A stretch of DNA of 6,363 nt from positions 1 to 6,363 of the forward strand of contig JAAEQP010000362.1 in the NCBI GenBank assembly GCA_024231375.1, in the 5' to 3' direction. This document shows, one piece after another, positions 1 through 6,363 of the stretch (position 1 is the stretch's first letter; each line of letters opens with the position of its first letter). The position numbers and the translations under genes are program-made. The notes under the pieces were generated by a model that ran no database searches, was not told where the DNA came from, and saw only the letters and a program-made list of their open reading frames with translations. Source of the DNA: a bacterium (GTDB lineage: Bacteria > Hydrogenedentota > Hydrogenedentia > Hydrogenedentiales > SLHB01).

Positions 1-495
1 TCAATGTGATTTCCCCGCGCACGCGGGGATGGACCGCGACAGCGGGTCCGAGAACTCTCAGCCAGAAGGATTTCCCCGCGCACGCGGGGATGGACCGCTC
101 GGCTATCGCGCGACGGATGCGCGAACTCGGATTTCCCCGCGCACGCGGGGATGGACCGGCCGCCGCCACGATAGATGATCGGTTCGAGGAGATTTCCCCG
201 CGCACGCGGGGATGGACCGAGTATCATACCGTACGGTAACAGGTTCGCGGCGATTTCCCCGCGCACGCGGGGATGGACCGGTAGGCACGAGTGCCGCGAA
301 GGGACACGGGAAGATTTCCCCGCGCACGCGGGGATGGACCGAAGAGGGGGAGGGGATTGTGGGCGCCGGGGCCGATTTCCCCGCGCACGCGGGGATGGAC
401 CGATTCTCGCGGCGCCGGGGGCGGTGAAGGGTGCGATTTCCCCGCGCACGCGGGGATGGACCGTGCGGACACGGGTGGTGGGCAAAACTGTGGGC

Positions 496-524
496 GAGGT
501 CCCCACGCCCGTGGGGATGGACCG
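496..524 (+). repeat. Degenerate CRISPR repeat 9 with compensatory stem change
   Basis: This copy differs from the consensus at five positions: TT to GG at repeat positions 3-4, G to A at 10, A to C at 14 and C to T at 17. Positions 10 and 17 are stem partners, so the G-C pair has become A-T and the 7-bp hairpin is kept intact. The 3' end ATGGACCG is unchanged. It is the second last repeat of the array. Confidence 0.93.
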
Positions 525-528
525 CCCA

Positions 529-555
529 CCTCCACCACCTCCACCACCTCCACCA
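529..555 (+). repeat. Three tandem 9-bp units inside the last CRISPR spacer
   Basis: Three perfect copies of CCTCCACCA (529-537, 538-546, 547-555) make up half of the interval 525-578 between repeats 9 and 10. The interval is 54 nt, against 32 nt for all eight other spacers. A CCTCCACCA tandem is a simple-sequence tract and may have expanded by slippage after acquisition. Confidence 0.93.
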
Positions 556-578
556 CCACGTCGCACCCCGAGGTCACC

Positions 579-606
579 GAGGTCCCGCGCACGCGGGGGT
601 GGACCG
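579..606 (+). repeat. Degenerate terminal CRISPR repeat 10 (28 nt)
   Basis: The last copy has lost one C of the left stem (GAGGTCCC instead of four Cs) and carries A to G at the first base after the stem. It shares the GG at positions 3-4 with repeat 9. Its 5' end is part of a tandem duplication: CCGAGGTCA at 568-576 is followed by CCGAGGTCC at 577-585. The stem can still form with six or seven pairs. No further repeat follows, so this is the end of the array. Confidence 0.9.
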
Positions 607-627
607 GTCTGCCATTCCCTGGTAGAC
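607..627 (+). other. Hairpin abutting the last CRISPR repeat
   Basis: GTCTGCCA (607-614) pairs along its whole length with TGGTAGAC (620-627), with one G-U wobble, around a 5-nt loop TTCCC. It begins at the first base after the terminal repeat. No T-tract follows, so it is not a standard Rho-independent terminator. It could stabilise or end the pre-crRNA, or be chance. Confidence 0.45.
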
Positions 628-1066
628 GAATGACGACGCGGCTCGTTCTTCTTCGCGGAGGCCAGACGAGAAAGCGGGTGCATTCAAGGGGGTGATATGA
701 GAACAGGGCGGCCATACGGTGATAATCGGTCGCTTCGCCGGAGCGTTGCGTCTTGCAACTTCAGACCCCTTGGGTGCCAAGCTGGCGGCTTTGCGGTGTA
801 GGCTATGCCCGTGTCTGCCGCCAGTGTTGGGGCCGGGCCCCGAGTGGGCGTCACCGCACCGGAAGAAATGCCACAGCAGGCAAGTTCGCGCCACGCGAGG
901 ACAGCCATGACCTCAAGGCGAACGCGGACATTGAATCTGAGCATGCCTTGGGAGCATAATCACGGGTGGCGGTCAGGCCTTTCGGTGGTCAAGGTACCCC
1001 GAAAATGAAGACCTGAAGAGAGCGAGGTCATTATCGGATAGTGGCGGAATTCCTTCTTTTGCTTGA
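628..1066. other. Gene-poor spacer between CRISPR array and next ORF
   Basis: No ORF here has a convincing start, SD and codon pattern together. The short open frames overlap each other without any recognisable protein motif. Three small palindromes are visible: CTTGG/CCAAG at 769-781 (3-nt loop), GGGGCC/GGCCCC at 829-841 (1-nt loop) and TCGCG/CGCGA at 886-898 (3-nt loop). None is followed by a T-run. No tRNA-like cloverleaf was found by eye. The stretch could hold an element boundary or remnants of degraded genes, but nothing in it proves either. Confidence 0.5.
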
Positions 1067-1083
1067 GCATAGGATAACTATGC
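1067..1083. promoter_or_regulatory. Perfect 6-bp dyad upstream of a strong SD; candidate operator
   Basis: GCATAG (1067-1072) and CTATGC (1078-1083) are perfect inverted copies separated by GATAA. The dyad ends four bases before the AAGGAGGT SD at 1088-1095. The sequence GATAAC (1073-1078) within it resembles a -10 hexamer at four of six positions, but no good -35 lies 16-18 bp upstream. The symmetry and position fit a repressor site over a promoter or leader. The regulator is unknown. Confidence 0.35.
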
Positions 1084-1087
1084 CTAA

Positions 1088-1095
1088 AAGGAGGT
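1088..1095 (+). promoter_or_regulatory. Ribosome binding site, full consensus AAGGAGGT
   Basis: AAGGAGGT is followed by six bases and an ATG at 1102. The match to the 16S anti-SD is complete and the spacing is good, so translation very probably starts at 1102 even though the ORF behind it looks weakly coding. Confidence 0.75.
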
Positions 1096-1101
1096 ATACC
1101 G

Positions 1102-1527
1102 ATGCCCTATCCCGTCCCGTTTCTGCAACTTGCTCCGTGTCGTCCTGCGCCGCGTTTCGCAGAACGAGTCCTCGAGGCCCCCGGTCCTGCACCCGGACGA
1201 CACCACCCTCAGCTCACTGACCTCACCTACCCCGAGGTCGGTCCGTACGACCTGACACAACGCGACCGTATGAGGTTGCTCACCTCCAGGACCAGGGGTC
1301 GCCACGGGCATTCCGACCCACTTCGCGCCGTACTGAAGACGAGAGCCCCCGGTCCTCCGGCATGGACACGAGGCCAATGCCGTGACGGCCCAAGAGGTGC
1401 CCCCCCACCGGTCATTCTAGAGTGGACTGCGTGTCCACGGAGTGATGTCGTTTTGCACGTCTTGAGCACCAACATACAGAGCGCGAGGAGGTCAACCTCT
1501 GCGCCAGCAACAGGAGATAGAACCTGA
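1102..1527 (+). CDS. Doubtful 141-aa hypothetical protein
   Basis: I do not recognise this ORF. In its favour are the perfect SD six bases before the ATG and the TGATG junction with the next gene (stop 1525-1527, next ATG 1527-1529), which is typical of translational coupling. Against it is the product, rich in Pro, Arg, Thr and Gly with no domain, membrane segment or regular secondary-structure pattern. Third codon positions in the first 150 bases are only about 55% G+C by hand count, whereas the next forward frame gives about 80%, as does the matching antisense frame. That frame has no usable start and stops near 1255. The gene may be a genuine orphan, a frameshifted remnant, or a leader ORF that delivers ribosomes to the 470-aa gene. 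Confidence 0.4.
   Translation: MPYPVPFLQLAPCRPAPRFAERVLEAPGPAPGRHHPQLTDLTYPEVGPYDLTQRDRMRLLTSRTRGRHGHSDPLRAVLKTRAPGPPAWTRGQCRDGPRGAPPPVILEWTACPRSDVVLHVLSTNIQSARRSTSAPATGDRT
1481..1504 (+). other. Small hairpin just before the 1527 gene's SD
   Basis: GAGGT/ACCTC around CA forms a perfect stem at 1488-1499, flanked by GCGC on both sides (1481-1484 and 1501-1504). It ends eight bases before the AGGAG SD (1512-1516) of the next gene. It could modulate coupling between the two ORFs. The evidence is symmetry only. Confidence 0.25.
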
Positions 1528-2939
1528 TGTCGAATCAAGAACGCAAGGACCAAGAAGCGAAGCTGGGTATCCTTCTGGGCGAACTGATGCTGACCCTGAA
1601 TGACCTGAACCAACCGTCGGATTTCAGGCGGTTCAATAACGCCGTAGACGGGGCTCGCCAAGCATCCAAGCTCGCGGCGGAACTGGAGTGTCCTCCCCCG
1701 ATTTGGATCAGAGTGACGGCCGAGCAGTTGCTGGTGTATGAAAACCGACAGCACGACTCCCTCCCGGCGAGCCACATGGAATTCCTGAGGTGCAGCGGGG
1801 AGGTCTTCTTCAGGAACGGGGCGGAGCGAGAGAAGAAACGCCGGGGTGAAGTCCTTGAGCGAAAAGGAGCCGAGTGGTTTGAGTCATGCCTGACACCGGT
1901 CGAAACCGAGGATCCCGCGACCGTCTACGACCTGTTTCTTCACCTGAGTCGAGTGTACGCGGAGAACCCGAGCAACCTGAACGCCGTGGTTCGGCAACAC
2001 GTTACCGAGCGGCTCTCAGCTTGGGTCCGAGGCCTGGGGGTAGAGGTACCGGAGTTCGAGGTACCACCAGGGGGTTCATGGGTCCCCGACTGGTCACCTG
2101 AGGCACTGGAGCTCTTCCGCGAGCAGGGCGGCTGCGAAGTGATGCCCGCGAGTGCCTCGCTGAAGGACGCGAAACGGCTCCCCGATTGGGAAGTCGTTGA
2201 ACAATACAAGGCCTCCCGCCGACACCCCCCCGCTGCGCAACCGCCAGAGGCGCAGCAAGGCGCTGACGCAAGCGAGGAGGGTAAGGAGAAGCCGAAGCTA
2301 GAGGTAGAGTTGAAGAACGGCGAGTCCCGGTCGTTCGATGTTGAAGGAGGCGATCCGTTCCGCCTTGCGCAGAAAACCGACTGGCCGGGATGGCGTGAGA
2401 CCGCGAGCTGGGCCCTCGACGACGCAGCGTGCCTCGTCTGCGGGGTCAACCCGGACTACATCTTCGTGCACCACCTCATCGGTGGCGGTACCGGTGAGGA
2501 CCTCCGCTCGTGGCGGGCGCAGACGCTCTACGACCACGCCGAGCAAGCCATCCAGGCGGGCGACCTCGACCACCACACGAACGGCGAGGGCGACATGCGC
2601 GTGAAGCCGCGGGAGTTCGTTTCGTGGGCCGCTGCGCGCGGGTGGGAAGTCCCGCCTCCGCTCGAGGCGCTGGTTGTAGAGGTGGCAGCCAGGAAGAATG
2701 AAGAGAAGAGTGAAGACAGTACGACATCTCGCACGATGACGCGGGTGGAATTGGTCAATAGGTTCTGCGAGAGATTCCCCACGGCGGAGCGAGGCACTGC
2801 CACGACGAGAGTGTGGCGGGCCGTGAAGGGGAAGCGCGAGCTCCCCGAGGGTGACATTCCGACTGCGGTGGCAATCGAGTGGCTGGAGGGCCAAGAGGGA
2901 CCAAGACCGCGGCGCGACAGTGACTATGACATCGACTGA
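1527..2939 (+). CDS. 470-aa protein of unknown function, element-associated
   Basis: The ATG lies ten bases after AGGAG (1512-1516) and overlaps the upstream stop by one base. The protein is soluble, with no signal peptide or membrane helix. Residues 1-225 are mostly helical and charged. Residues about 230-260 form a Pro/Ala/Gln then Glu/Lys-rich linker. Residues about 284-309 contain the pattern W-x-x-TASWALDDAACLVCGVNPD, and residues about 358-383 contain VKPREFVSWAAARGWEVPPP. From memory, paired motifs of this kind (W..AA.LL.G..P, later V.P.EF..WA...G...P) recur in uncharacterised proteins of integrated elements, but I cannot name a family. Residues about 400-470 form a basic, then acidic tail. 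Codon use is uniformly GC-rich, so the gene is intact and expressed-looking. It ends 172 bp before the preferred start of the AlpA-like gene and may be a separate transcription unit of the same element. Confidence 0.85.
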   Translation: MSNQERKDQEAKLGILLGELMLTLNDLNQPSDFRRFNNAVDGARQASKLAAELECPPPIWIRVTAEQLLVYENRQHDSLPASHMEFLRCSGEVFFRNGAEREKKRRGEVLERKGAEWFESCLTPVETEDPATVYDLFLHLSRVYAENPSNLNAVVRQHVTERLSAWVRGLGVEVPEFEVPPGGSWVPDWSPEALELFREQGGCEVMPASASLKDAKRLPDWEVVEQYKASRRHPPAAQPPEAQQGADASEEGKEKPKLEVELKNGESRSFDVEGGDPFRLAQKTDWPGWRETASWALDDAACLVCGVNPDYIFVHHLIGGGTGEDLRSWRAQTLYDHAEQAIQAGDLDHHTNGEGDMRVKPREFVSWAAARGWEVPPPLEALVVEVAARKNEEKSEDSTTSRTMTRVELVNRFCERFPTAERGTATTRVWRAVKGKRELPEGDIPTAVAIEWLEGQEGPRPRRDSDYDID

Positions 2940-2950
2940 CAAGGACCTTC

Positions 2951-2976
2951 TGTAAGCGCATTGCAGACTTCTTACA
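2951..2976. promoter_or_regulatory. Inverted repeat TGTAAG/CTTACA, candidate operator
   Basis: TGTAAG (2951-2956) and CTTACA (2971-2976) are perfect inverted copies 20 bp apart, about two helical turns, so both half-sites would face the same side of the DNA. No T-run follows. It sits 12 bases after the stop of the 470-aa gene, at the head of the only sizeable gap in the gene string. It fits a protein binding site better than a terminator. Confidence 0.3.
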
Positions 2977-3002
2977 AGCCCGCGTTGAAGGCACTGTCAA
3001 CA

Positions 3003-3027
3003 AGGGTCACCGAGGGACCCTCTTCTC
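3003..3027 (+). terminator. Weak terminator-like hairpin AGGGTC/GACCCT
   Basis: AGGGTC (3003-3008) pairs with GACCCT (3016-3021) around a 7-nt loop and is followed by a pyrimidine run CTTCTC that contains only three Ts. An alternative short palindrome, GAGGG/CCCTC, overlaps it. The position between the 470-aa gene and the replication operon suits a terminator, but the T-tract is poor. Confidence 0.3.
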
Positions 3028-3071
3028 ACAACGACTGACAACTCTCCATTACTGGAACCCTCCAAGTAGGT

Positions 3072-3091
3072 CGCGGGCAATGGTGCCCGCG
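3072..3091 (+). promoter_or_regulatory. Strong hairpin CGCGGGCA/TGCCCGCG before the AlpA-like gene
   Basis: Eight perfect, GC-rich pairs (3072-3079 with 3084-3091) surround a 4-nt ATGG loop. The stem ends seven bases before the GGAGGT SD at 3099-3104. As RNA it would be very stable in the 5' leader of the operon and could control ribosome access or transcript stability. As DNA it could be an operator for the HTH protein encoded next. No T-run follows, so it is not a standard terminator. Confidence 0.5.
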
Positions 3092-3098
3092 TCAACAT

Positions 3099-3104
3099 GG
3101 AGGT
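3099..3104 (+). promoter_or_regulatory. Ribosome binding site that places the start at TTG 3112
   Basis: GGAGGT is followed by seven bases and TTG at 3112. The in-frame ATG at 3097 overlaps this SD and has only the hairpin upstream, so TTG 3112 is the better start. A dyad TTGAC/GTCAA (3106-3110 and 3116-3120) spans that start codon and may be a regulatory site. Confidence 0.65.
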
Positions 3105-3111
3105 ATTGACC

Positions 3112-3375
3112 TTGAGTCAACCCACATCTTCGCAGAGAGGCGGTCACGCCTCACAGTTGAATCTCCCGATAAACGCGGCCCTCCTGGACGTCAACCAGGT
3201 GTCACAACTGATGAATTGTAGTGTCCGAACCATCAGGCGGTGGTCGGACACAGGTCGGATGCCTCGTCCCGTCAGGATTGGCGGTCTCGTTCGATGGGCC
3301 CGCGCTGACCTTGAGCGCTGGGTCGCTGACGGCTGTCCGCCCGTCCGCCAGCGAAAAGGAGGTGTGCTGTCATGA
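3112..3375 (+). CDS. AlpA/excisionase-like helix-turn-helix DNA-binding protein
   Basis: This is an 87-aa product with the TTG start chosen from the SD at 3099-3104; the ATG at 3097 would add five residues. After a disordered N-terminal tail of about 22 residues, the sequence LLDVNQVSQLMNCSVRTIRR, then W, GRMPRPVRIGGLVRW and LERWV is the winged HTH of the AlpA/HTH_17 (MerR-like) family. The pattern covers helix 1, turn, recognition helix, P-x-P-x-x-I-G wing and a W-containing C-terminal helix. Members are small DNA-bending proteins acting as excisionases or as activators of integrase and replication genes in prophages and integrated elements. The stop overlaps the PrimPol ATG as ATGA, and that gene's SD lies inside this one, so the two are coupled. 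A direct role in controlling excision or replication of the element is inferred. No integrase is visible here. Confidence 0.87.
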   Translation: MSQPTSSQRGGHASQLNLPINAALLDVNQVSQLMNCSVRTIRRWSDTGRMPRPVRIGGLVRWARADLERWVADGCPPVRQRKGGVLS

Positions 3376-5684
3376 CCGCTCCAAAAGAAGCCGGCACTGG
3401 GGCGGTGCCCGCCGCGTCCAAGGCCGAAACAGCAAATACCAACGCTTCGAATTCCAGCCCCCTTGGCGAGGAAGGTCAAGCGACACCCCTTCTTGATGCG
3501 GCGCTCGTGTATGCCAGGCATGGGTGGCCGGTCTTCCCGTGTCGGGGGAAGCGGCCAGCGACGCCGCACGGCTTCAAGGACGCCACGACCGACGTCGATG
3601 CTATCCGCGAGTGGTGGCGTACGTGGCCTGAAGCGAACGTAGCTATAGCCACAGGTCCTGCCGGTCTGCTCGTCCTCGACTTGGACGTGAAGAACGGCCA
3701 GAAAGGGATCGAAGAAATGCGGCGCCTCGAAGAGAAAAACGACGCGCTGCCAGTGTGTCCCAGTGTCTCGACACCGAGCGGTGGTGCCCACTACTACCTC
3801 CGAGTGCCGGAAGGTCACGAGGTCAAGTGCAGCGCGAGCAAGCTGGCACCTGGCGTTGATGTCCGAGCGACGGGCGGATACATCGTCGCACCCCCATCGC
3901 GCCTCGCCGACGGGGGGCAGTACGCTTGGCAGGAGGGGGTTGATGAGGTCGCCCTGCCTGAAGCACCGACTTGGCTGCTCTGTTTCCTCGATTCTCCCAG
4001 GTCGCGCAGAGGCGACTGTCCTGCCGATGGGGGGCAAGGGGAAGAGCCAGAAATAATCGAGAAGGGCGGCCGCAATGATGCTCTGACACGATTTGCTGGC
4101 CGCCTCAGAAGTGGCGGTCTCACTGGCGATGAGCTTCTTGCCGCCCTGGATAAGATGAATGCGAACCGTTGCAGGCCGTCGCTTCCAAGGTCTGAGGTGC
4201 GGTCGATAGCCGCGTCCGTGCAGCGCTATGCTCGCGGGGAGGACCCTCCCCCTCCTCTCCCAAGAGTGAAGCGACCGAAGGCAGAGTCGTTTCCTGTCGA
4301 GGCGCTTGGTTCCATACTGGGGGCTGCGGCCGAAGCCCTTCACGAGTATGTCCAAGCCCCTTTGGCCATGTGCGGCAGCGCTGTCTTGGCAGCGGCTTCG
4401 GCGTGCTGCCAAGCGCAGGCCGATGTCCATGTGGACGGACGCGTCTACGCGACGAGCGTTTTCTGCCTCACCGTGGCGGAATCCGGGGACCGAAAGTCCG
4501 CGATTGACACCATGGCCACCCGTCCTTTGCGCGAACGCGAACGTGAGTTAACCAAGCGCTACGAACACGAGATGGGCGAGTATGAACGTGCTGCAAGCAT
4601 CTATGAGGCCGAAAGGAGCAGAACTTTGAGGTCGGGTAGCCTTAAGGGTCTCGAAGCCAAGAAGAGCGCCGTGGAAGAGCTCGGGCCGGCTCCATCGAAG
4701 CCTCTGCGCCCGGTGTTGCTCGTCAGCAACTTCACCGTCGAGGGGGTTTCGCGCCAACTCGCGGAAGGGTGGCCCTCGTTGGGGATTTTTTCCGACGAAG
4801 GGGGCCAGACCGTGGGCGGGCACGCGATGAGCAAAGATAACGAGCTCAAGACCCTTGCCGAGCTTTCAAAGCGTTGGGACGCGCACGGCGACGGCATGAG
4901 GCTACGAAGCGGTGATGGGGTGCGGGCCATCCTCGGACGCCGCGTCTGCATGCATTTGGCCATGCAGCCCGCCGTGGCCCGATTGCTGTTGGGAAACCCA
5001 CTCGCCCACGGTCAGGGCTTCCTCCCTCGTTGCCTTCTATCTTGGCCGGAAACGTTGCGCGGGACGCGGTTCTACAGGTCGGGGAACCCGAGCGAAGATT
5101 GCCGAGTGCAGGTCTACTACGAGACGCTTGCCAAGCTGCTCGAACTGCCTCTTCCGTGGGATGAGAGCGGCGAGGTCGCCCTCGGCTTGGCGCCGCGCGC
5201 CATGCAGCTGACGCCCGAAGGCTATGATGCCTATGTTGGTTTCTACGACTCCGTGGAGGAGCAAAATGCCCCGGACGGACCCCTTTCTTGCGTGGCGGCA
5301 TGGGCAAGCAAGGCGGCAGAGCATGCGGTACGTATCGCGGGCATTCTGTCACTAGTGGACGATCCCGACGCCTGTGAGGTGGAAGAAATCGCGTTCCGGT
5401 CGGGTGCGACCCTGGCCGAGTGGTACATGGCCGAGTACCTCAGAGTGTCCGGCCTGGCAGCGGAGGACGCGACGTCCGAGCAAGCCGATGAGGTGCTCGC
5501 GTTCATCGAAGCCCAAGGTGGAGCGGCCGATGCAACCCTGCTGATGCGAGCCGGTCCTCGGGCTGTTCGCAGCAGGTCCGGGCTCGACAAAGTCATGGAG
5601 TACATGGAGACGACCGGGATGGTGGAGCGCGAGACGGCAAGGCGGTCAGGCCGCAGCAAGAGGACCTGGAGGATAGCGCAGTGA
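3372..5684 (+). CDS. PrimPol - PriCT-1 - DUF3987 primase/helicase replication protein
   Basis: This 770-aa multidomain protein has its ATG eight bases after AAGGAGGT (3356-3363). Residues about 40-205 are a bifunctional primase/polymerase (PrimPol) domain with GWPVFPCRGKRP at 51-62, metal-binding D103 and D105 in LLVLDLD, the nucleotide-binding SGGAH with H140, and GVDVRATGGYIVAPPS at 161-176. Residues about 229-290 match the primase C-terminal domain PriCT-1 (KGGRNDALTRFAGRLRSGGL, then EVRSIAASVQRY). Residues about 307-690 are a DUF3987 P-loop helicase-like domain. It has a Walker A-like AESGDRKSA at 369-377 with K375, a charged helical insertion at about 385-440, and Walker B FSDEGG at 473-478. 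Residues about 704-770 look like a winged helix with a basic tail. The protein should prime and unwind DNA to replicate the element. All key residues are present and the gene is intact. Confidence 0.95.
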   Translation: MTAPKEAGTGAVPAASKAETANTNASNSSPLGEEGQATPLLDAALVYARHGWPVFPCRGKRPATPHGFKDATTDVDAIREWWRTWPEANVAIATGPAGLLVLDLDVKNGQKGIEEMRRLEEKNDALPVCPSVSTPSGGAHYYLRVPEGHEVKCSASKLAPGVDVRATGGYIVAPPSRLADGGQYAWQEGVDEVALPEAPTWLLCFLDSPRSRRGDCPADGGQGEEPEIIEKGGRNDALTRFAGRLRSGGLTGDELLAALDKMNANRCRPSLPRSEVRSIAASVQRYARGEDPPPPLPRVKRPKAESFPVEALGSILGAAAEALHEYVQAPLAMCGSAVLAAASACCQAQADVHVDGRVYATSVFCLTVAESGDRKSAIDTMATRPLRERERELTKRYEHEMGEYERAASIYEAERSRTLRSGSLKGLEAKKSAVEELGPAPSKPLRPVLLVSNFTVEGVSRQLAEGWPSLGIFSDEGGQTVGGHAMSKDNELKTLAELSKRWDAHGDGMRLRSGDGVRAILGRRVCMHLAMQPAVARLLLGNPLAHGQGFLPRCLLSWPETLRGTRFYRSGNPSEDCRVQVYYETLAKLLELPLPWDESGEVALGLAPRAMQLTPEGYDAYVGFYDSVEEQNAPDGPLSCVAAWASKAAEHAVRIAGILSLVDDPDACEVEEIAFRSGATLAEWYMAEYLRVSGLAAEDATSEQADEVLAFIEAQGGAADATLLMRAGPRAVRSRSGLDKVMEYMETTGMVERETARRSGRSKRTWRIAQ

Positions 5685-6115
5685 GTATCCCAGGATATGT
5701 TAGCTTTTCGGAACCATCGGCCAGCGACTTTGCTGAGTTTGCTAAGCTAGGCTCAACTCACGGCTCGACCCCCAGGAACAGCGCCGCCCAAGGCATCGCC
5801 GTTCCCAAGTCCGCCGACGCGGCTAACACAGCAAACTCAGCATACTCGCCAGGCTTGCGTTTCATCAGAGAGGTGTGGCGGGACTACTGGAAGTGGCAGG
5901 CGACCTTGCATCCCGCGCACAGCGCCGCGTATGTAGCGATGAGCAACTTGCCGCCAACGTGGCGCCCCAACCCCGACGATCCTGCCGTGGTGGAGATTCT
6001 GCGCATCCATGCCGACCCCCAGAGCCCCCCTGCCACGCCCGATGGGAGCGTCGGGCCACTTGGGCTAATGTGGGCCGCCTGGTGGCTGCGCGTGACCATG
6101 GATGGGCGCGTATAA
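5681..6115 (+). CDS. 144-aa protein of unknown function containing an internal inverted repeat
   Basis: The GTG start at 5681 overlaps the PrimPol stop as GTGA and lies seven bases after GGAGGA (5668-5673), so it is translationally coupled. The N-terminal 57 residues are low-complexity and probably disordered. Their sequence is dictated by an inverted DNA repeat: FAEFAK (17-22) is encoded by the left arm and NTANSAYS (49-56) by the right arm. Residues about 58-144 look like a folded segment rich in aromatic residues (SPGLRFIREVWRDYWKW, LPPTWRPNPDDPAVVEILR, GLMWAAWWLRV), which could be a small helical domain. I do not recognise a family and see no catalytic motif. There is no clear membrane span. 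Context suggests an accessory role with the primase, possibly binding the DNA or RNA structure it carries. The stop overlaps the ATG at 6115 (TAATG). Confidence 0.8.
   Translation: MSIPGYVSFSEPSASDFAEFAKLGSTHGSTPRNSAAQGIAVPKSADAANTANSAYSPGLRFIREVWRDYWKWQATLHPAHSAAYVAMSNLPPTWRPNPDDPAVVEILRIHADPQSPPATPDGSVGPLGLMWAAWWLRVTMDGRV
5724..5849. repeat. Nested imperfect inverted repeat built of 9-bp units
   Basis: Arms 5724-5752 and 5821-5849 are complementary at 23 of 29 positions, including a perfect 13-bp core TGCTGAGTTTGCT (5731-5743) against AGCAAACTCAGCA (5830-5842). The left arm contains tandem 9-mers TTTGCTGAG and TTTGCTAAG (5729-5746). The right arm on the minus strand reads TATGCTGAG then TTTGCTGTG. 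Between the arms, GGAACAGCG (5775-5783) pairs with CGCCGTTCC (5797-5805) at eight of nine positions. Its centre lies within about 4 bp of the outer centre, so the whole can fold into one long interrupted hairpin or cruciform. Possible roles are an iteron-type origin, a recombination site or a structured RNA. Confidence 0.8.
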
Positions 6116-6162
6116 TGGCCCAACTACTTGACAGATTGACCGAGACAGGAGATAATAATCTC

Positions 6163-6363
6163 ATGGCCTGCAAGAAGAGAGGCGGAACGAGCATGACGGA
6201 CCTGTTGCGCGAGGCCCTGCTCAAGGTCGAGTCGTTGCGTAGGGTGGCAACGGAGACAGGCGTTCAGCGCATGGCGATGGCGCGTTTCAGAGACGGTCGC
6301 CAATCGCTTCGCCTGGACAAGGCAGATATCCTGGCCGATTACTTTGGCATCGAATGCCGACGA
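6163..6363 (+). CDS. Cro/C1-like HTH protein, 3' end cut by the window edge
   Basis: The open frame runs from ATG 6115 to the last base without a stop. I prefer ATG 6163, eleven bases after AGGAG (6147-6151). ATG 6115 has only a weak SD but overlaps the upstream stop as TAATG, and ATG 6193 is also possible. From 6193 the protein reads MTDLLREALLKVESLRRVA, followed by TETGVQRMAMARFRDGRQSL and RLDKADILADYFGIE. This is a compact XRE/Cro-type helix-turn-helix: the recognition helix is around GVQRMAMARF, and the closing RLDKADILADYFG helix is typical of these small regulators. It is probably the autoregulator of the element's replication operon or a copy-control protein. Only 67 residues from the preferred start are visible. 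Families of this shape are usually 65-90 aa, so little should be missing. Confidence 0.82.
   Translation, partial: MACKKRGGTSMTDLLREALLKVESLRRVATETGVQRMAMARFRDGRQSLRLDKADILADYFGIECRR

Follow-up and report, generated by a model that had tools for sequence, protein, structure and literature searches.

Replication regions that lie next to primase or helicase genes have been described in phage-inducible chromosomal islands (PICIs), phage P4, plasmid pRN1 and staphylococcal cassette chromosome (SCC) elements. We compared these systems with an inverted repeat directly 3′ of a PrimPol-DUF3987 helicase-primase gene in a stretch of 6,363 nt from a member of the Hydrogenedentota (positions 1 to 6,363, forward strand, of contig JAAEQP010000362.1 in assembly GCA_024231375.1; hereafter, the window). 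The sequence comparisons make it highly probable that a mobile element, probably of the phage-satellite kind, uses this repeat as its replication origin or as the part of the origin on which the initiator is loaded. Computation on related loci shows the place of such repeats, their 9-bp step, their inversion and their covariation with the helicase winged helix. In the window and in relatives, the repeats directly follow the proposed initiator gene as short tandem repeats in two sets that face each other, with letters specific to the element; in the window each set has only two clear units.

The origins of PICIs are located immediately 3′ of pri/rep and comprise two iteron sets (PMC6092414). 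E. coli PICIs are also described as encoding alpA, a further likeness to the window. PICI iterons flank an AT-rich stretch, whereas DUF3987 arrays show none, and we therefore do not class the window repeat as a PICI origin. PICMI (phage-inducible chromosomal minimalist island) satellites of Vibrionaceae have an int-alpA-prim organization, and the published search model uses PF12728 for AlpA and DUF3987 or DUF5906 for the primase (PMC10803314). They share the PF12728 and DUF3987 families with the window but differ in their int and fis site, neither of which was seen in the window contig. The term ‘iteron’ is absent from the searched main text of that paper.

In the phage P4 record, crr is annotated immediately past the alpha primase gene, as a site that replication needs in cis. 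The crr repeats are spaced 9 nt in one orientation and 18 nt in the other, and P4 origin repeats are reported to be bound by a winged helix (PMC4234260). P4 differs in having a further rep_origin annotated elsewhere, a Toprim-type primase and other repeat letters.

In pRN1, the corresponding region immediately follows the gene for an archaeo-eukaryotic primase-helicase whose C-terminal domain is a winged helix. The region and the replication operon are jointly described as necessary and sufficient, and the region is called a stem-loop, without iteron structure (PMC4234260). The region can be read as TGTCCATAG TGTCCAACT plus their inverse, about 55 nt past the gene, which amounts to 2+2 inverted 9-nt units; 2+2 inverted 9-nt units can also be read in pRN2 and pHEN7. 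With a stem of 21 nt and a loop of 58 nt, the pRN1 arms occupy nt 54-74 and 133-153 past the stop, compared with nt 40-68 and 137-165 in the window, whose loop of 68-72 nt and onset 40 nt past the stop are near to those of a pRN1-type stem-loop, not identical. pRN1 further differs in having a superfamily 3 (SF3) instead of a DUF3987 helicase and in that its linkers pair too.

In SCCmec, direct repeats within 23 bp (three 5-nt iterons) lie in a region between cch2 and ccrC described as a putative origin, and the Cch2 helicase and its isolated C-terminal domain bind this direct-repeat region as double-stranded DNA (PMC7581432). By arithmetic, three evenly spaced iterons would have a 9-bp step. 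SCCmec is unlike the DUF3987 loci in that direct repeats are reported to suffice for binding and that the primase is separate.

The inverted repeat in the window

The arms at 5724-5752 and 5821-5849 are complementary at 23 of 29 positions, including a perfect run of 13 bp, and a 9-nt inverted repeat (8/9) is nested between them, which is the geometry given in the original prediction. Its reading of the arms as strings of 9-nt units also stands. The units follow TGCTRAGnn and point in opposite orientations in the two arms, each of which has two clear units:

5723..5730, plus strand: degenerate outer unit AGCGACTT, with an 8-nt step to its neighbour, read by eye
5724..5752, plus strand: left arm, with two clear units and a degenerate outermost one
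5731..5739, plus strand: 9-nt unit TGCTGAGTT
5740..5748, plus strand: 9-nt unit TGCTAAGCT
5775..5805, no strand: nested inverted repeat of 9 nt within the spacer (5775-5783 with 5797-5805), from computed pairing
5821..5849, minus strand: right arm, pairing with the left arm
5825..5833, minus strand: 9-nt unit TGCTGTGTT
5834..5842, minus strand: 9-nt unit TGCTGAGTT
5843..5850, minus strand: degenerate outer unit GGCGAGTA, with an 8-nt step to its neighbour, read by eye

Exact matches to TGCTRAG occur in all 6363 bases only at 5731 and 5740 on the plus strand and at 5836 on the minus strand. Allowing one mismatch yields 27 matches, including the right-arm neighbour at 5827 on the minus strand. 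The 2+2 inverted 9-nt score of the window was matched by 13 of 2000 dinucleotide shuffles, and among 460-nt segments stepped along the window it was reached only by the segment over the repeat. The original prediction had proposed folding and codon-shuffled controls. The segment folds more strongly than all 200 shuffles both as RNA (z −4.86) and as single-stranded DNA (z −4.22), and the inverted-repeat score of the open reading frame (ORF) was reached in 1/300 codon permutations and 0/300 synonymous resamplings.

Arrays in relatives and covariation with the helicase

We assembled 95 DUF3987 loci in two scans, from 80 genome contigs (the best 80 of 262) and 15 viral contigs. Adding two plasmid loci and the window, and removing L030, which has no stop, gave a study set of 97 loci; L003, whose primase lacks DUF3987, was also dropped from the locus set. 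Alignments A2 and A3 were used for the scans, alignment A1 being too divergent for patterns, and a single-sequence search with PrimPol retrieved no relatives. DUF3987 is present in 45 of 299 sampled Pseudomonadota genomes.

Inverted 9-nt arrays (at least 2+2 units, one mismatch allowed) were identified in the 460 nt around or after the DUF3987 stop in 56 of 95 loci, compared with 37 of 1680 control segments. This score covers the window and leaves out two short segments. Arrays with six or more units were found in 45/95 loci and 4/1680 control segments. The expectation that related loci would keep the symmetry while their arms differ in letters thus held in 56 loci and not in the other 39. With exact 6-mers, 34 of the 97 loci have an inverted array within 250 nt past the stop; two loci have one just before the stop, one has one at 500-750 nt after it, and the other listed bins are empty.

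The common layout is three YGC(T/G)A(A/C)W units followed by three inverted ones. This three-unit pattern exceeds the 99% level of 1033 control segments in 35 of 58 representatives (<70% identity). Some of these 35 have a single strong arm, and 16 have both arms strong and less than 150 nt apart. The window units TGCTGAGTT and TGCTAAGCT share register and orientation with the units of the relatives, and the window repeat is a divergent version of this widespread feature. In many of the loci listed, a small ORF with mirrored peptide repeats starts no more than about 80 nt from the end of the match. The peptides differ in letters: ATSATTATQ / VSQVSQVSQ in L036, AKVAKVEK / SQVSQLSQ in L034 and FAEFAK / NTANSA in the window.

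A second Pseudomonadota sample (30 loci fetched per family among the matches listed; L245 and L246, without a stop, dropped) may overlap the first set. It contained inverted arrays in 12/28 DUF3987 loci and, unexpectedly, in 16/30 loci of DUF5906, a second primase-helicase family; the respective controls, which were segments inside and before genes, gave 5/137 and 2/129. Six or more units were present in 9/28 DUF3987 and 9/30 DUF5906 loci and in none of either set of controls.

Several loci have variant arrays. The DUF5906 loci L252, L253, L255 and L258 carry bigger ones, with 2+3 units facing 2 to 6 and about 70-100 nt between the sets; their letters (ATTTGCC, ATGGCAC, AACGCAG and TTCGCCA) differ, and their layout is closer to PICI origins. 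Ten Pseudomonas loci (L002, L066, L067, L069, L070, L073, L076, L078, L079 and L097) have seemingly co-oriented blocks of TGTCGCC units, the orientation being read from DNA in L002 and from ORF peptides in the nine others. Variant cores (TGTGCAA, TGGTGCA), a second array pair or a third array downstream occur in L057, L077, L001, L014, L020, L036 and L054. In P0003 and P0008, the linker preceding the helicase domain contains ATSATSATSGARVAGVAEVA and AKVATVATVAGVAEA, which may mean that the primase gene itself has further 9-nt units. The small ORFs of L020, L025, L037, L045, L048, L061, L063 and others open with a short motif of the MWFDA or FxKF kind, and a tail resembling LTWTGRVVSLADWR is common to several of those from Rhodobacterales.

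Direct TGCKAMA triple arrays were rejected as a marker on their own. They are unspecific in viral contigs (at least 120 loci): 6/120 have two inverted units within 250 nt, 6/120 have a DUF3987 ORF anywhere, and in four loci (L134, L152, L166, L177) that ORF is less than 500 nt from the array. The signal is therefore the inverted pair near the stop. The exact TGCKAMA triple pattern had no match in five genomes with DUF3987 loci because single units vary.

We compared the letters at unit positions 4 and 6 with 406 alignment columns from the last 465 residues of the helicase-primase, in 41 of the 97 loci (score at least 45, arms less than 110 nt apart, 5/6 units agreeing at positions 4 and 6; window excluded). 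The best column for position 4 is −53 (0.86 bits; runner-up 0.57) and the best columns for position 6 are −57 and −58 (1.12 and 1.02 bits). The window residues aligned to the two covarying columns fall within one domain:

5469..5675, plus strand: C-terminal winged helix of the proposed initiator, with Thr722 and Arg726 in its second helix (nt 5532-5552), placed by alignment to the two covarying columns and by the model

T at position 4 (T4) occurs with Gln in 18 of 19 loci (the other has Arg), and G4 with Arg in 18 of 22 (the others have Asn three times and His once). C6 is accompanied by Arg in 25/25 loci, A6 or T6 in 0/16. In one parsimony reconstruction, on a tree from which the last 90 residues were left out, all 9 letter changes at position 4 and all 5 at position 6 fall on branches on which the residue class also changes (10 and 5 residue changes, respectively). 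The closest contrasting pair, L047 (T4, Gln) and L043 (G4, Arg), is separated by a distance of 0.05. Among held-out loci, 4 of 31 ORFs could be judged, and the position-4 rule held in 4/4. The window obeys the position-6 rule, with Thr722 and with either A or T as the sixth letter of each of the four clear units. Since the letters track winged-helix residues, the primase-helicase itself probably reads the 9-nt sites.

These observations suggest the following model. Each arm would consist of a few 9-bp iterons in tandem, with the arms facing each other past the PrimPol-DUF3987 stop. The C-terminal winged helices would bind successive 9-bp units as double-stranded DNA, and the two facing groups would assemble as one or two hexamers resembling minichromosome maintenance (MCM) helicases. 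Duplex melting would come next, followed by synthesis of the initial primers by the PrimPol domain. Being located within a small gene that overlaps the end of the primase gene, the repeats keep reading frame, and the repeated peptides would be a by-product of the DNA sites.

Alternative readings and the level of selection

The arms might instead act through their structure, which would form an extruded hairpin or cruciform of the kind suggested for pRN1, with the initiator recognizing or priming at that structure; we consider this unlikely. The strong folding of the window segment agrees with it, as does the pairing of the linker inside the 13-bp core, and the window alone cannot separate a reading by units from a reading by pairing. 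In pRN1 the stem is perfect over 21 nt, and a one-arm mutation is reported to be rescued once a compensating change restores symmetry (PMC4234260), which also counts against a purely iteron-based reading.

The relatives point the other way. In 16 clean loci, positions G2, C3 and A5 are near-invariant and positions 1, 7, 8 and 9 vary, and arm-to-arm identity at variable positions is 92/160 in hairpin register versus 168/256 out of register. Pairing conservation of the pRN1 type was thus not found across these DUF3987 relatives. Given the lack of register preference, pairing there looks like a by-product of the common unit. The covariation of units with winged-helix residues likewise argues against a structural signal. 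So does SCCmec Cch2, whose binding is reported to require direct repeats, with inverted repeats dispensable, and for which single-strand binding was undetected, perhaps owing to the oligonucleotides, as the authors suspect (PMC7581432). The original prediction had also offered a structured RNA to which the downstream protein binds, or a recombination site. Neither drew support, although no test aimed directly at recombination was made: pairing is no better in register, and the covarying residues, from a comparison that covered the helicase-primase, lie in the helicase.

The distances between arms in the 16 loci are 26, 36, 36, 39, 46, 47 (five loci), 48, 57 (three loci), 60 and 84 nt, the last (L044) being inflated by a six-unit right array whose nearest unit is at 57. 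Helical phasing of these distances is suggestive only: Rayleigh R is 0.72 at 10.5 bp but equally high from 10 to 11.5, and the loci are not phylogenetically independent.

Slightly less likely than the structural reading is that the arrays are an operator, or a copy-control or incompatibility site, which the helicase-primase binds without starting replication there. Covariation indicates binding only, the P4 record has its rep_origin besides crr, and iterons commonly serve control as well as initiation. Against this, the arrays follow the gene, usually within the next small ORF, with no evident promoter there. The same place is described as the origin in PICIs (PMC6092414) and as required for replication in pRN1 (PMC4234260).

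As for coding, 15 of 19 strong representatives have a plus-strand ORF across both arms. All 15 include an ORF that reads the left arm as GCN-NNN-NNY, as in the small ORF of the window (frame counted by hand); three contain an additional ORF read in another frame, and at the array pair used in L001 the ORF coupled to the primase has a different frame. The other four (L006, L009, L064, L050) lack a plus-strand ORF of at least 60 aa over the arms yet keep the 9-nt inverted units, L050 having only a minus-strand ORF there. Distances of 26, 46 and 47 nt, which are not multiples of 3, keep no frame between the arms in several loci. Selection of a small protein for FAEFAK/NTANSA-type motifs, with DNA symmetry as by-product, or an RNA hairpin regulating the operon is thus very improbable: the left-arm frame common to all 15 spanning cases favours it, and the four loci without such an ORF, the distances off multiples of 3 and the rare retention of the repeat on synonymous shuffling of the window ORF count against it. 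Selection on the DNA itself, which the original prediction had favoured, is borne out by the arrays of the relatives, the covariation and the known replication regions.

Several observations weigh against an iteron-type origin read by the winged helix. First, 39/95 loci fall below the array score, and some Pseudomonas loci show blocks that are apparently direct rather than inverted. The surroundings of the arrays in 31 representatives contained no AT-rich stretch, the array span being 5% below local GC content and the flanks about average. Second, the 41 covariation loci were not thinned for redundancy and many are Rhodobacterales. Background covariation is high (a third column for position 6, located elsewhere, reaches 0.92 bits), and the mean over the last 75 residues is barely above the remainder, so the signal lies in single columns. 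The position-6 rule held in just 2/4 held-out loci, and the covarying residues are in helix 2, not in the usual recognition helix 3.

Third, the known systems agree in part. P4 is unscored under a strict 9-only inverted rule and is detected by a 9-or-18 rule. No clear 9-nt array was found in pDL10, pSSVx or BIP-1. Other spacings score as high as 9 in pRN1 (8) and pHEN7 (10), perhaps because of A/T runs, and 9 is the sole scoring spacing only in pRN2. For pRN1, gel shift and footprinting are reported to show no specific binding, and the authors state that there is no direct evidence of origin function (PMC4234260). Finally, the window is divergent, with two clear units per arm and a variable unit position 5 (G in three of the four clear units, otherwise A). 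It falls short of the stricter three-unit family pattern (36.5 against a 99% level of 39) and breaks the position-4 rule, combining Arg726 with T4. On account of this misfit the claim is weaker where the window is concerned, but not for the family. The iteron-like origin suggested in the original prediction is well supported by the relatives and by known replication regions, and the divergence of the window and its broken position-4 rule tell against it.

Neighbouring genes and significance

The window contains an alpA plus primase module, an HTH_17 (PF12728) gene followed by PrimPol-DUF3987:

3097..3375, plus strand: HTH_17/AlpA-like regulator directly before the primase (PF12728, E 1.3e-10; Phage_AlpA only at E 0.045)
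3372..5684, plus strand: PrimPol - PriCT_1 - DUF3987 helicase-primase, the proposed initiator (Pfam PF09250, PF08708, PF13148)
5681..6115, plus strand: small ORF enclosing the repeats, its GTG start overlapping the primase stop (from the ORF list)

An AlphaFold2 model of residues 301-770 of the helicase-primase has an MCM-like AAA+ (ATPases associated with diverse cellular activities) fold. Foldseek alone gave weak MCM matches, none at E 0.001 or better, and a profile search of PDB sequences gave no match. The winged helix resembles many winged helices, with no clear best match and with the P4 origin-binding domain absent among the matches listed. The small ORF at 5681-6115 had no match in a Pfam scan, and its sole homologue was a shorter form of itself. 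Rfam at gathering thresholds returned nothing across the window, and neither an integrase nor terS was recognized in the contig by a Pfam scan that covered five ORFs. Upstream of the replication module, an ORF of 470 aa at 1527-2939 has no Pfam match. Positions 1-610 hold a CRISPR (clustered regularly interspaced short palindromic repeats) array, presumably of type I-E, with repeats like GATTTCCCCGCGCACGCGGGGATGGACCG, the final ones degenerate.

In the literature searched, DUF3987 proteins appear as predicted helicases or as a primase whose loss lowers satellite replication. The repeats reported here were not found described in that literature on DUF3987, iterons, satellites and 9-bp repeats, which consisted mainly of titles and abstracts and lay mostly outside subscription papers. 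Tentatively, and with a chance just short of even, we propose that one rule may hold in P4, PICIs, pRN plasmids, SCC and DUF3987 elements: facing 9-bp-stepped arrays 3′ of the primase-helicase gene would be recognized by a hexameric helicase of the MCM-like or SF3 type through its C-terminal winged helix. The pRN1 ‘stem-loop’ would then consist of two iteron arrays, and the DUF3987 winged helix would have a Gln/Arg site code formed by two of its residues.

For DUF3987 proteins, the finding predicts an origin and the domain that would bind DNA, together with a residue-to-base code for which natural close pairs, such as L047 (Gln/T4) and L043 (Arg/G4), provide a test. It also offers a fresh reading of the pRN1 puzzle, an example of an origin-like site lying within a small coding frame that overlaps the primase gene, and a possible route to satellite origins by sequence alone.
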